Source: Nitriliruptorales bacterium
Lineage (GTDB): Bacteria > Actinomycetota > Nitriliruptoria > Nitriliruptorales > Nitriliruptoraceae
Reading direction: 5' to 3'
Assembly: GCA_024637135.1 (NCBI GenBank)
Contig: JAGXFT010000084.1
Span: 1 to 49,303, forward strand
DNA: 49,303 nt
The translations under genes were made by a program, and so were the position numbers. Shown here in pieces: positions 16,539 to 21,029 of this stretch. The notes beneath the pieces are model-generated. The model saw only the letters and a list, made by a program, of their open reading frames with translations. It was not told the origin of the DNA and did no database searches. Positions within the stretch are counted from its first letter, which is position 1. Every line of letters starts with the position of its first letter.

Positions 16539-17582
16539 TCAGGCCGCCGCGCCGGGGGGTGGGCCGCTCGGGCCGGACGGGCCGGGACGACGTCGGAAGC
16601 GCAGGCCGCGGCTGCCGTGGATGCGCTGCGCCCAACCGGCGTCCAGCAGTGCGTTGGCGGTCCGTCGGGCGGCTGGGAGATCCGGCCCGTCGGCACCGTC
16701 GCCGAGGTCGTTGGCGACGTCGATCAGGGTGAAGGACGTGGGGAGCCGGGCGACCAGGGCGGTGTCGACCGGTCCGGGCTGGACCCCCAGCGTCGTCGCG
16801 GCCAGCCGGAGCCCGGCGGTGACGTCCTCGCCCCAGCCCTCGAGGAACCGCGTGCGGTCGCCGCTGCGGAGCCCTGCGGCGACCTCGTCGTAGTTGCCGG
16901 CGCGGCGCTGGACCATCGAGATCTCGGGGATGGCGAGGCCGCCGGGGTCCAGGCCCGCCCCCCGCAGGACCAGTCGCGCGGCTGCCCGCGCGAGGCGTCC
17001 GTTCGCGGACTCGAACGGGTGGAGTCGCAGCAGGTCGAACTGCAGGATCCCCGCGACCTCCAGCGGATGGTGGTCGTCGGCATCGAGCAACCGGGGCAGG
17101 TGGGTCATCTCGCGGGCGAGCCGGTCGGGGGCGACCGGCCGGAACACCTGCCGGCCCTCGCCGCCGGTGTGCACGGCCACGTCACTGCGCCGCAACCGTC
17201 CGCGCAGTTCGGTCGCCACCAGTCCACCGGTCAGGAGCCGGTGCAGGCCCTGGATCGCCCCCAGGACGTCGCGACGAAGGAGCTCGGCCAAGTCGTCGGC
17301 GGCCAGCGCGCGTCGGACGCCGGCGTACTCGCGCCGCCAGATGTCCTCGGTGGACGAGTCGTCGTCGACCAGCGCGGTGGTGTCGCCGTCGGTCGGCGTG
17401 CGATCGTGGGGCGACCCGTCGAGTCGGCACGACGCGATCACGGCCCGGTCCCACAGGTCGGGCGCCGTCGAGCCGGCCGCGACCGCACGTCCGACGTCGT
17501 CGGCCAGCCGGCGGGTGGTGGCGACCAGGTCCACCAGGTGGTCCGTGCGTCGCCAGGTCGAGGATCCGAGGGTGGCGATCAT
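16539..17582 (-). CDS. Fic/DOC-domain protein with variant Fic motif
   Basis: The 347-residue protein has a central Fic fold whose motif reads HPFESANGRLAR (188-199), against the consensus HxFx[D/E]GNGRxxR. H188 and the NGR anion hole are kept, but the metal-binding acidic position is S192 and the first Gly is A193; E191 is displaced by one. A candidate inhibitory motif S51-CRL-D55-G56 stands N-terminally, as in class II Fic proteins ([S/T]xxxE[G/N]) with Asp for Glu. The C-terminus (about 285-335) looks like a winged helix, suggesting DNA binding. The start overlaps the HAD gene's stop by 4 nt. AMP-transfer activity is uncertain. Confidence 0.82.
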   Translation of the reverse strand: MIATLGSSTWRRTDHLVDLVATTRRLADDVGRAVAAGSTAPDLWDRAVIASCRLDGSPHDRTPTDGDTTALVDDDSSTEDIWRREYAGVRRALAADDLAELLRRDVLGAIQGLHRLLTGGLVATELRGRLRRSDVAVHTGGEGRQVFRPVAPDRLAREMTHLPRLLDADDHHPLEVAGILQFDLLRLHPFESANGRLARAAARLVLRGAGLDPGGLAIPEISMVQRRAGNYDEVAAGLRSGDRTRFLEGWGEDVTAGLRLAATTLGVQPGPVDTALVARLPTSFTLIDVANDLGDGADGPDLPAARRTANALLDAGWAQRIHGSRGLRFRRRPGPSGPSGPPPGAAA

Positions 17583-18400
17583 GACCAGGGTTTCCAGCCG
17601 GGTCGGGCGCGGGACAGCTCCGCGGCCTCCAGGGTGCGACCGTGCCGTCGTCCCACGGCGTAGGTCGTGGAGGCCAGCCCGATCGCACCGCTGATGGCGG
17701 TCGTGGTCTTGATGACGCGCTTGGTCCGTCGCGAGAAGATCACGATCGGCCAGCCCCGCTGCTGCGCGACCGATTCCAGTGCCGAGTCGGGGTTGACCGC
17801 GACGGGATGGCCCACGAGGTCGAGCATGGGAAGGTCGGACGCCGAGTCGGAGTAGCCGTAGCTGAGTCGGAGGTCGTAGCCACGGTCGCTCGCCAGGTCC
17901 GCGATCGCCTCGACCTTGCCCTCGCCGTACACGAAGGGCCCGTCGAGCAGGCCGGTGTAGTGGCCCGCGTCGTCCACCGCGGCGCGCGTGCCGATGCCCC
18001 CGGTCATGCCCAGTGCACTCGCGAGGGCACCGACCAGTTCCTGGGGTGAGGCGGACACGATGTAGGTGTCACGTCCGGCCTCGTGGTGCATCTCGATGAG
18101 CCCGTGGGACTCGGGCCGGATCTTGTCCAACAGGGTCGGGATGACGACCTCGTTGAGGGCCACGAGTTCGTCGCGGCGCGTGCCACGGACGATCTCGAGG
18201 ATCCGATCGCGGCTGGCGTTGGAGGTTTCGTCGGAGGCCCCGAAGAGCCGGAACATCACGGCGCCGAGGGCGTCACGGGCGAGCAGGCCGCCGTCCAGCA
18301 TCCCGCCCCGCCAGGCCGCGACGGCGAAGGTGGCGGGGGAGGCGCCGCTGATCAGGGTCCGGTCGAGGTCGAAGAACGCGGCCGCCCGAGTCGTGCTCAC
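17579..18400 (-). CDS. HAD-IB (SerB-like) phosphatase with C-terminal membrane segment
   Basis: The 273-residue protein carries the HAD motifs: motif I FFDLDRTL (nucleophile D11, acid D13), motif II near YIVSASP, and motif IV YSDSASDLPML. The cap resembles phosphoserine-phosphatase-like HAD subfamily IB enzymes, including those with lipid or phospho-amino-acid substrates. Near the C-terminus a hydrophobic stretch (AISGAIGLASTTYAVG) followed by basic residues suggests membrane association. It is the first gene of a coupled pair with the Fic gene (ATGA overlap). The upstream region is a long non-coding gap with DnaA-box-like sites. Confidence 0.87.
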   Translation of the reverse strand: MSTTRAAAFFDLDRTLISGASPATFAVAAWRGGMLDGGLLARDALGAVMFRLFGASDETSNASRDRILEIVRGTRRDELVALNEVVIPTLLDKIRPESHGLIEMHHEAGRDTYIVSASPQELVGALASALGMTGGIGTRAAVDDAGHYTGLLDGPFVYGEGKVEAIADLASDRGYDLRLSYGYSDSASDLPMLDLVGHPVAVNPDSALESVAQQRGWPIVIFSRRTKRVIKTTTAISGAIGLASTTYAVGRRHGRTLEAAELSRARPGWKPWS

Positions 18401-18948
18401 GCTGGTCCCTCCCCCGTGGGTCTCGACGGCTGCCGACGGGGCGGCATCGTACTGCCCTGGTCCAGGACCGAGCCGGGTGCGCCGTGGGACCCGCGACCGG
18501 ACGGCGGAGACGTCGGAGACGACACAACCCCCGCAGCCGACGGCTGGTGTTCCCTTCCCCGTGGAACACCCACCGTGGCGATGCGGGGGTTGCGCGTCGG
18601 CACCGTAGCCCGGGGCCCACCATGCCCGTCAACTCGGTCGTCCACAGTCGGCTGGGGACGACCCGCTCCAGCTTGTGGATGGCCTGTGGATGCATCGGGG
18701 ATGTCTGGGGATGTCGGGGTCGTGGCCTGTGGACAGGGTCGAATCCCCACGGGTGGCGACGACCACCCGCGTTCGACCTCCGGACGGCCGGCCCCGACGG
18801 CATGGCCATCCACAGGGTTCTCCCCAGCCTGTGGACGGCGAAACGACGTCGATCGGTCGGGCCGGTCGTCCCCAGCCGGGCGACCCGCGCACGACGGCGG
18901 CCGGTGGGCCGGGCATCCTGTCCAGCGCGCGCACCGACAGGAGTTCCC
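18401..18948. other. 548-bp non-coding divergent gap with DnaA-box-like cluster
   Basis: No reading frame here has a credible start or domain. The left half (18401-18630) shows nothing recognisable beyond the upstream region of the HAD gene. The right half holds six DnaA-box-like sites (separate entry), a tandem repeat of TGGGGATGTC near 18697-18719, and an inverted repeat CGGGTGG-6-CCACCCG at 18750-18769. It ends in the AGGAG ribosome binding site of the YgjP-like gene. Confidence 0.7.
18638..18838. promoter_or_regulatory. Cluster of six DnaA-box-like 9-mers
   Basis: Six sites share TCCACA or TGTGGA cores, and five match the high-G+C DnaA consensus YYRTCCACA: TCGTCCACA (18638, +), CCATCCACA (18674, -), GCATCCACA (18685, -; first base differs), CTGTCCACA (18728, -), CCATCCACA (18806, +) and CCGTCCACA (18830, -). 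About 0.06 such hexamers would be expected by base composition in 200 bp. No A/T-rich unwinding element and no dnaA, dnaN or parAB gene is nearby, so replication-origin function is not shown; DnaA titration or regulation is equally possible. Confidence 0.55.
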
Positions 18949-19569
18949 GTGGACCGCGACGTCGAGCACCGCCCGCCCCAACAGCCGGGCGAACCCCCTG
19001 TCCGTATCGTGCGATCGACCCGGCGCCGTGCCCGAGCGTCGGCCTTCGCCCGGGACGGGCACGTGGTGGTGCAGTTGCCCGCGCACCTGCCGACGGACGT
19101 GGCCGAGCAGACCATCGCCGACCTGGTCGCCCGGGTGACCCGTCGCGATCGGGCCCGTCGGCGTGGGGACGACGCGTGGCTCGGGGGCCGAGCCCGCGTC
19201 GCCGGGGATCGCTGGCTTGACGGCGTCCACCCGACCAGCGTCACGTGGTCGAACCGGATGACGCGGCGGTGGGCGTCCGCCACGCCGGCGACCGGAGCCA
19301 TCCGCATCAGCACGGTGGCCGCGGCCTTCCCCGATCGCGTCCTGGACTACCTGTTGGTCCACGAACTGGCCCACCTCGTCGAGCCCAACCACGGGTCGGC
19401 CTTCCACGACCTGGTCGCGGGCTATCCGGATGCCGACTGGGCGCGTGGCTTCCTGGCCGGGGTCGCGCACGCCGCGGCCACCGGGCCCGGCGGGACCACG
19501 CCCGTGGTGGATCCGGGTGAGCCGCCGGGTCAGTGCTCGTCGCCGTCGTCGGGCTCCTCGGCGTCCTGA
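18949..19569 (+). CDS. YgjP-like (M48-related) zinc metallopeptidase
   Basis: The 206-residue protein ends in a DUF45/YgjP-type peptidase domain with the zinc motif VHELAH (H138-E139-x2-H142) followed by the second histidine cluster NHGSAFHDLV (H148, H153). The preceding segment VTWSNRMTRRWASATPATGAIRIS is typical of the family. The N-terminal 30 residues are basic and unconserved. The GTG at 18949 follows AGGAG by 5 nt. The last 40 bp overlap the end of the convergent DUF2342-type protease gene. Its substrate is unknown. Confidence 0.88.
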   Translation: MDRDVEHRPPQQPGEPPVRIVRSTRRRARASAFARDGHVVVQLPAHLPTDVAEQTIADLVARVTRRDRARRRGDDAWLGGRARVAGDRWLDGVHPTSVTWSNRMTRRWASATPATGAIRISTVAAAFPDRVLDYLLVHELAHLVEPNHGSAFHDLVAGYPDADWARGFLAGVAHAAATGPGGTTPVVDPGEPPGQCSSPSSGSSAS

Positions 19570-21029
19570 TCCTCGGACCCGTCGACGACGTGGTCGGGCC
19601 CGTCCTGCCCGAGGCCCTGACCCAGTCGCTGGGCAGCGGACGGCTCGATCGGGGCATCGCCCAGTCCCTCGAACAACGATGACGCGTCTTCGGGGATGGC
19701 GTCGGCTGCGGCCATGCGCACCAACCATCGTGACGGCGTCGCGAGTTCCTCGGCGTCCGGCAGGTTCTCGGGGTGGGCCAGTGCCTCGTGGAGGGCAGCG
19801 CCGCCGCGGGCCGCCACGACCGCCGCCACGAACCCATCGCCGACGTCGGGGTCGTCCGCGGTCAACTGGAGTCCCAGCAGGTCAGCCAGCACCTGTTCGC
19901 CGTCGCCGGTCGCGGCGCGACGTCGGCGCAGGATCTCGTCGATGGCGTCCAGGGAGGGCAGGCGACCGGACGCCGCCGCCAGTGCCTCGTGCCGTGCCCA
20001 TGCTCGCGTCAGGGTGGTGACGCCCTGCAGGCGGGCAAGGACGCGTTGTTGGGACGCGGTCGGTTCCAACCGGAACCGACCGGCGCGACTGATGGCCTCG
20101 CCCATGGACTGGGGATCCTCGGGATCGACGCCGGTCATCGCGTCCCGCAGCATTCCCTCGAGCCGCTCCGGGTCGGGCTCGCTGCCGTTGGCGAACTGGG
20201 CCACCAGGGACTGGACGTGGGCGCCGAGCCACGGCACGGCGTGGAACAGACGCCGATGCGCAGCCTCGTGCAGGGCCAGGGCCAGGGCGACCTCCTGGTC
20301 GTCGAGGTCCCAGCCGTCGAAGGCCTCGCCGGTGTTGACCGCGACGAAGAGCGCGGTCCCGCGCGGCACGGTCGGGATCCCGAGGTCGTGGCTGCCCAGC
20401 AGTTGGCCGGCGAGGTTCCCCAGCGCCATCCCGGCGTGCAGGCCGGTGGTGGAGGACGCGAGGCGGCCGACCATGGCGCCCATGTCGATGCCGCCGAGCA
20501 TCTCGGTCATTCCCTCGGGAAGGGTGTCCAGCAGCCCCGATGCCTGCAGGTCGGGATCGTCCAGGCCCCCGTCGGGGACCAGGGCCGACATCGCCCGTCC
20601 GGTCGCGGCCGCGACCGGCTCGATGAGTGGTCGGAGGTGTTCGAGGGCCGCATCCACCCACTCGGTCCGCCGCACGACCCGGGTCCGGCCCAGGTCCGGC
20701 GGCGGTGGCAGCGAGCCGGCGTCCAGCCAGTGCTCGGCGAGTTCGATGGCCTGCTCGGCGCGCTGCTGTTCCTCCACAGACGGACCGCGATCGCCCTCGG
20801 CGGCCAGTTGGAAGGCCACCCGCCGTGCCACGTCCCAGTCCACCGGGCCCGCGACCGGTGCGGCCGACATCATGGCCTGCATCTGGGCCTGGACCTGTGG
20901 CAGCAGGTCGGCCATGGCGGACATGACCTCATCCGGATCGCCGCCGCCGAGGTTGGCCAGCAGTTCACGGACCTCCTCGGGCAGGTCGTCGAAGTTGCCG
21001 AAGTCGGGCAGGTGGTCGTCGTCGCTCAT
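19530..21029 (-). CDS. DUF2342-type zinc-dependent metalloprotease
   Basis: The 499-residue protein belongs to the actinobacterial zinc-dependent metalloprotease/hydrolase family (DUF2342, the Rv3195 type). The motif H254-EAA-H258 lies in ALHEAAHRRLFHAVPWLG, and PRGTALFVAVNTGEAFD precedes it. The N-terminus is acidic with a Met/Gln-rich segment. There is no signal peptide. The ATG at 21029 has GGGAG 5 nt upstream. It is transcribed away from the gene series that includes PDZ/S16 protease and UPF0182 genes, as in mycobacteria, so a shared quality-control task is likely. An inverted repeat CGTTGCCCA-10-TGGGCGACG lies at 21042-21069, just upstream. Confidence 0.9.
   Translation of the reverse strand: MSDDDHLPDFGNFDDLPEEVRELLANLGGGDPDEVMSAMADLLPQVQAQMQAMMSAAPVAGPVDWDVARRVAFQLAAEGDRGPSVEEQQRAEQAIELAEHWLDAGSLPPPPDLGRTRVVRRTEWVDAALEHLRPLIEPVAAATGRAMSALVPDGGLDDPDLQASGLLDTLPEGMTEMLGGIDMGAMVGRLASSTTGLHAGMALGNLAGQLLGSHDLGIPTVPRGTALFVAVNTGEAFDGWDLDDQEVALALALHEAAHRRLFHAVPWLGAHVQSLVAQFANGSEPDPERLEGMLRDAMTGVDPEDPQSMGEAISRAGRFRLEPTASQQRVLARLQGVTTLTRAWARHEALAAASGRLPSLDAIDEILRRRRAATGDGEQVLADLLGLQLTADDPDVGDGFVAAVVAARGGAALHEALAHPENLPDAEELATPSRWLVRMAAADAIPEDASSLFEGLGDAPIEPSAAQRLGQGLGQDGPDHVVDGSEDQDAEEPDDGDEH

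Follow-up and report, generated by a model that had tools for sequence, protein, structure and literature searches.

Why would one intergenic gap of a Nitriliruptorales genome, remote from dnaA, carry a dense group of sites resembling boxes for the replication initiator DnaA? We examined this question in a stretch of 49,303 nt (hereafter the window), which is one entire contig (C147) of the metagenome-assembled genome (MAG) G000, itself composed of 213 contigs and 88% complete. From comparison with relatives we propose, with a probability of about 0.66, that the boxes serve as the control region lying upstream of a DnaA-controlled small-RNA gene, which plausibly feeds back on dnaA.

A recount of TCCACA/TGTGGA cores in the gap gave six (18641, 18674, 18685, 18728, 18809 and 18830, covering 18641-18835), the number that had been announced for 201 bp in the original prediction, a note made from the sequence of the window. 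It had also stated that five of the six boxes fit YYRTCCACA and that two of them form a direct repeat at 11 bp; both statements hold, the pair being 18674/18685. Its figures for the hexamer were only partly reproduced: the window contains 23 copies and not about 14, while the expectation of 0.068 per 201 bp, taken from the rate outside the gap, is near the 0.06 first given. With this expectation the Poisson probability of at least six cores in 201 bp is ~1e-10, and TCCACA is the most significantly clustered among all hexamer pairs of the window. We observed two additional weak sites of the TGGGGA/TCCCCA type at 18653 and 18821, which had gone unmentioned and whose positions are occupied by strong boxes in relatives. 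The promoter and hairpin RNA that border the cluster on its left (18518-18632) had likewise gone unnoticed. TCCCCA is 18-fold enriched in clusters, with part of this enrichment coming from the outer stem of the hairpin described below. Hence its reading as a weak DnaA box throughout was dropped, and weak boxes were counted only where TGGGGA or TCCCCA occupies a canonical box position.

The array was then compared in a sample of 66 genomes of class Nitriliruptoria, where f1 and f2 denote families of the window's order, f3 to f5 those of other orders of the class and f17 a family outside the class. Within the order, most relatives carry the pattern TGTGGA-N5-TGTGGA-N79..109-TCCACA at a single genomic place (26 of the 66 class genomes match), and none of the 30 genomes of the other orders has it; the reversed pattern, used as control, had no matches in genomes of the class. 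The canonical layout, given as hexamer starts with orientation, is 0>, 11<, 33<, 44<, 131>, 142>, 151<. All seven positions are filled in the window, two of them by weak TGGGGA/TCCCCA sites, and one extra strong box is present; a weak TGGGGA at the second position is common to several relatives. In the f3-f5 loci that were read, a box cluster lies directly downstream of the Zincin_2 metallopeptidase gene, except in the reduced genome G061, and no such cluster was present at ~80 Zincin_2 loci of other actinobacteria. Box order and number vary between orders; the last box, nearest to the RNA described below, keeps its place. The conservation of the intergenic boxes in relatives, which the original prediction had put forward as a check, is accordingly found across the class. 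Its remark that dnaA is not adjacent was equally correct: dnaA lies on another contig (C23) in the MAG, and at 650 kb and 923 kb from the array in the complete, single-contig relatives G010 and G017, respectively.

When the gap was aligned from 13 relatives, a segment left of the boxes proved to be strongly conserved; it folds as a long hairpin with the invariant loop GGGGAAGG. In f3-f5, too, a hairpin with this loop is located past the boxes, on the side opposite the metallopeptidase gene and not near the gene for the HAD-family hydrolase that follows it in the window. A covariance model (R1) trained on f3-f5 only found the hairpin at the expected spot in 29 of 29 f1/f2 loci (E <= 0.1 for 28 of them, 0.46 for the remaining one), and scored the hairpin of the window at 42.1 bits (E 7.9e-6). 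Antisense R1 matches in f3-f5 loci were excluded from the building of a further model, R2. In the joint alignment of 37 sequences, 93.4% of cells pair, against 43-56% with the partner strand slid. Compensatory change was seen in 15 of the 19 pairs (116 cells), and the observed covariation score was reached by none of 500 shuffles. G-U cells exceed A-C cells (61 vs 25) and RNAalifold gives a stronger structure for the minus-strand alignment than for the plus-strand one, which together fix the RNA on the minus strand, with a reading direction that leads away from the boxes. 6C RNA and other actinobacterial Rfam families are small hairpin RNAs of Actinobacteria. The present hairpin differs from them, as Rfam 15 gave no match in the window and none at E <= 1 in the window gap and six related loci. 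On this comparative evidence the hairpin is a structured non-coding RNA gene, previously uncatalogued and presumably transcribed.

With the joint model, genomes across the class each gave the RNA at a single place; it was also detected in two genomes outside the class, from the rest of the phylum sample, both with upstream boxes. These two loci, L425 (G077) and L426 (G091) of family f17, have the box array together with the hairpin RNA; in G077 a 175-amino-acid ygjP-like gene (judged by eye) stands between the box-RNA unit and Zincin_2, and in G091 the unit is further from Zincin_2. Boxes and hairpin RNA were also seen at L360 (PBTV01000019.1, filed as a Rubrivirga MAG) beside an actinobacterial-type Zincin_2 and AceE-like genes; this contig is probably misbinned. 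Finally, positions 6442-6513 of L283, from the reduced 2.1-Mb genome G061, carry the same loop on very different stems, followed by a T-rich stretch; TCCACA boxes were not found near this hairpin.

The relative positions of boxes and hairpin are strongly constrained. At 49 of the 55 loci, the box closest to the RNA reads TGTGGA on the RNA strand and lies 83-91 nt upstream of the apical loop, and a box near -238 recurs at most loci, across orders and in the outside genomes. Between the nearest box and the hairpin, 53 of the 55 loci carry a promoter composed of TTGACR or TCGACA, a spacer of 17-18 nt and TANNNT. The -10 element stands 46-54 nt from the loop, and TANNNT occurs in only ~1% of background windows. 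A stricter consensus promoter scan reported nothing in the window gap; the promoter call thus rests on conservation across loci. DnaA boxes are therefore found at a fixed place beside a promoter, as in a DnaA-regulated promoter. Such constant spacing of box, promoter and RNA is what a promoter control region would show, and titration of DnaA alone would not need it.

A candidate target of the RNA is the leader of dnaA itself. CTTCCCC, the complement of the loop, is present in all 25 dnaA leaders with an oriC box triplet (13 genera), mostly 40-59 bp upstream of the triplet. No other 7-mer of the leader is as widely conserved, and a TACGGT element ranks behind it. The form CTTCCC[CT] was found in 7 of 7 genomes read from other orders. 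Most leaders have a TACGGT-type promoter-like element upstream of CTTCCCC, so that the motif is probably transcribed, and in six of seven folds it is, for the most part or entirely, unpaired or within a loop. Pairing of the RNA loop with the dnaA mRNA leader is plausibly predicted from these observations. In this order CCTTCCCC leads all short words upstream of the oriC boxes in conservation, whatever its function (leaders L052-L081, L445).

Comparative sequence analysis supplied the array with its geometry, the promoter, the covarying RNA and the complementary dnaA motif; that DnaA binds, with which sign it regulates, and that the RNA is transcribed and pairs with dnaA mRNA are inferred. In the scheme we favour, DnaA would bind the array of strong and weak boxes, at seven canonical positions of which the last is 14 bp from the -35 element, and would thereby set the activity of a sigma-70-type promoter. 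This promoter would make the ~81-nt hairpin RNA, which runs leftwards on the minus strand from 18598 to 18518 and whose invariant loop could base-pair with CCTTCCCC of the dnaA mRNA 5′ leader. The loop would then be closed: the level or activity of DnaA would control the RNA, and the RNA would tune dnaA expression and hence replication initiation. This full circuit of a deep-branching actinobacterial class, in which DnaA on a helically phased array controls a dedicated hairpin RNA whose loop pairs with CCUUCCCC in the dnaA leader, a trans-acting self-adjustment of initiator synthesis, is put forward tentatively, at somewhat less than even odds.

Several observations weigh against the proposal. 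The match between RNA and dnaA is only 7-8 nt long, and CTTCCCC is expected by chance at ~0.06 per kb per strand. The leader of the window species has ATTCCCCG, leaving a match of 7 nt, TTCCCCG with CGGGGAA; a congener of this species keeps CCTTCCCCG in its dnaA leader. The leader motif could also be conserved for another reason, for example as a protein site at oriC. Genome G060 keeps the boxes, yet no RNA match was found there. Last, seven boxes exceed the need of a promoter, and titration may be part of the role.

The last point leads to the alternative in which the array is mainly a site for DnaA titration or nucleotide switching, of the type of datA, DARS and the clusters of Bacillus subtilis and Streptomyces, the RNA gene being secondary. 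datA/DARS-type sites are its models (PMC5742627, PMC4585315), and the original prediction had already named such a reservoir, a reading that finds partial support here. In its favour, the class conserves one copy of the array, at a large distance from oriC (G010, 16.3% of the genome; G017, 16.6%), and the direct pairs with an 11-bp period fit the double boxes preferred by Escherichia coli DnaA (PMC11317965). In relatives the order, with box I facing boxes II and III, resembles the core of E. coli DARS1 and DARS2, which are likewise intergenic, far from oriC and conserved in place. The spacings of the DARS core are 11 and 12 between hexamer starts, against 9 and 11/12 in the relatives here, and the middle box of the window is weak; moreover DARS is not built into an RNA gene, unlike this array. 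Extra-oriC DnaA-box clusters of S. coelicolor and B. subtilis, likewise outside oriC and in Gram-positive bacteria, are reported to restrain untimely initiation, according to the passages on them in PMC5742627; the comparison with them is by description. A titration site could lie at any distance from a promoter, whereas the observed spacing is constant to a few bp across orders. Nor does it account for the last box staying put while box order and number differ between orders, or for the strong covariation of the RNA. The fixed spacing to the promoter and the RNA gene thus indicates a more specific role. We consider titration unlikely as the main function, although a datA/DARS-type site may be a second role beside control of the RNA gene.

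The remaining explanations concern the neighbouring genes, replication origin and chance. A DnaA-controlled promoter had been predicted for the HAD-Fic pair or the YgjP-like gene, and this was right in kind and not in the gene: the promoter points at the minus-strand small RNA, not at ygjP, and HAD is downstream only in this order. Here the promoter does point at HAD, which starts ~120 nt past the hairpin, so that the hairpin might be read as the mRNA leader of HAD (and Fic). In other orders, however, the HAD orthologue is elsewhere, without boxes, and the loop motif was not found upstream of it. The unit lies far from HAD there, and its far-side gene is variable (crotonyl-CoA-reductase-like, histidine kinase, lipoprotein or trypsin-like); some of these genes converge on the cluster, which therefore cannot be their promoter. 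A HAD promoter or leader is ruled out as the general role and appears improbable as an explanation of the locus. The boxes are upstream of ygjP in the window, but the array stays in the streamlined genus g2 and in genus g3 (G003-G005, G007, G009), where ygjP is gone. This refutes a class-wide role as ygjP promoter, and we give this explanation very little credence. Regarding a relocated or second chromosomal origin, also raised in the original prediction, the box density is like that of an oriC. Nevertheless, the sequence around dnaA has its own boxes in every relative with dnaA that was checked. In the MAG, the oriC region and the start of dnaA are at the broken end of contig C23 (L245:17059-17524), with parB, parA, rsmG, jag, yidC (assigned via similarity to the G010 dnaA region), three boxes and an initial portion of dnaA. 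A domain search of the MAG contigs did not find an intact DnaA domain, because dnaA is cut at this contig end. In sampled stretches of G010 the coding strand changes over at dnaA and a second time roughly half a genome from it, not at the array; this sampling was less clear in G017, and GC skew sampled from both genomes was too noisy to use. Furthermore, the absence of an A/T-rich unwinding element was rightly noted, as no 50-bp stretch of the gap falls below a GC of 0.60, whereas the minima near dnaA are 0.46-0.56 in three genomes. The array has neither dnaA/dnaN beside it, nor an AT-rich unwinding element, nor a coding-strand switch, and a relocated origin, excluded on these grounds, is scarcely credible. 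Chance clustering of GC-rich hexamers is refuted by the Poisson probability given above together with the class-wide conservation, and its likelihood is negligible.

Features of the box-promoter-RNA unit and its flanking genes, in positions of the window
Feature	Positions	Strand	Basis
HAD-family hydrolase gene, PF12710; downstream of the RNA in this order only	17579-18400	-	
Hairpin small RNA, ~81 nt; apical loop includes GGGGAAG at 18554-18560	18518-18598	-	Model R1, covariation
-10 element TACGGT of the small-RNA promoter, 19-nt spacer; predicted transcription start near 18595	18602-18607	-	TANNNT in 53/55 loci
-35 element TTGACG of the small-RNA promoter	18627-18632	-	Conserved position
DnaA box TCGTCCACA (B1), closest to the promoter of the RNA; reads TGTGGA on that strand of the RNA	18638-18646	+	Nearest-box spacing in 49/55 loci
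Weak box TGGGGA, canonical B2 position; strong box or TGGGGA in most relatives	18653-18658	-	Comparison of relatives
DnaA box CCATCCACA (B3), first of the direct pair, 11-bp period	18674-18682	-	
DnaA box GCATCCACA (B4), second of the direct pair	18685-18693	-	
DnaA box CTGTCCACA, extra box	18728-18736	-	
DnaA box CCATCCACA (B5)	18806-18814	+	
Weak box TCCCCA, canonical B6 position	18821-18826	+	
DnaA box CCGTCCACA (B7), far end of the array	18830-18838	-	
YgjP-like metallopeptidase gene, PF01863; lost in several relatives that keep the array	18949-19569	+	
Zincin_2 metallopeptidase gene, PF10103; commonest gene beside the unit in the class	19533-20900	-	

Apart from this unit, several orders have a second box group on the gyrA side of dnaA, at ~12-17 kb from it, which is of the TCCACA-N2-TGTGGA type in several genomes (G010:C1:326889-326914, G017:C1:938180-938205, L253:7866, L261:9111 and L260:5189). 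It is possibly an origin-near DnaA site.

Control of dnaA by a small RNA as we propose it has precedents. EcpR1 of Sinorhizobium pairs with dnaA mRNA through a conserved loop (PMC4414408). This alpha-rhizobial RNA resembles the present one as a trans-acting small RNA with a strongly conserved hairpin loop and dnaA mRNA pairing, which is predicted here, and differs in loop sequence and phylum. In B. subtilis, the RNA ArrA acts against dnaA, and its own promoter is repressed by DnaA (PMC12112137). Common to both cases would be a small-RNA promoter beside DnaA-binding sites, control by DnaA and action on dnaA, the last two being presumed for our RNA. ArrA, however, is a cis-antisense RNA at the dnaA locus, whereas the RNA gene described here stands hundreds of kb from dnaA, carries a multi-box array and would work in trans via its hairpin loop. 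EcpR1 and ArrA thus make the parts of the proposed circuit credible.

How initiation is held to once per cycle is largely an open matter outside E. coli and B. subtilis. The compact, class-wide element described here joins initiator sites to an uncatalogued RNA family and points to dnaA as a target. Extra-oriC clusters of DnaA boxes need not be mere sponges for DnaA.
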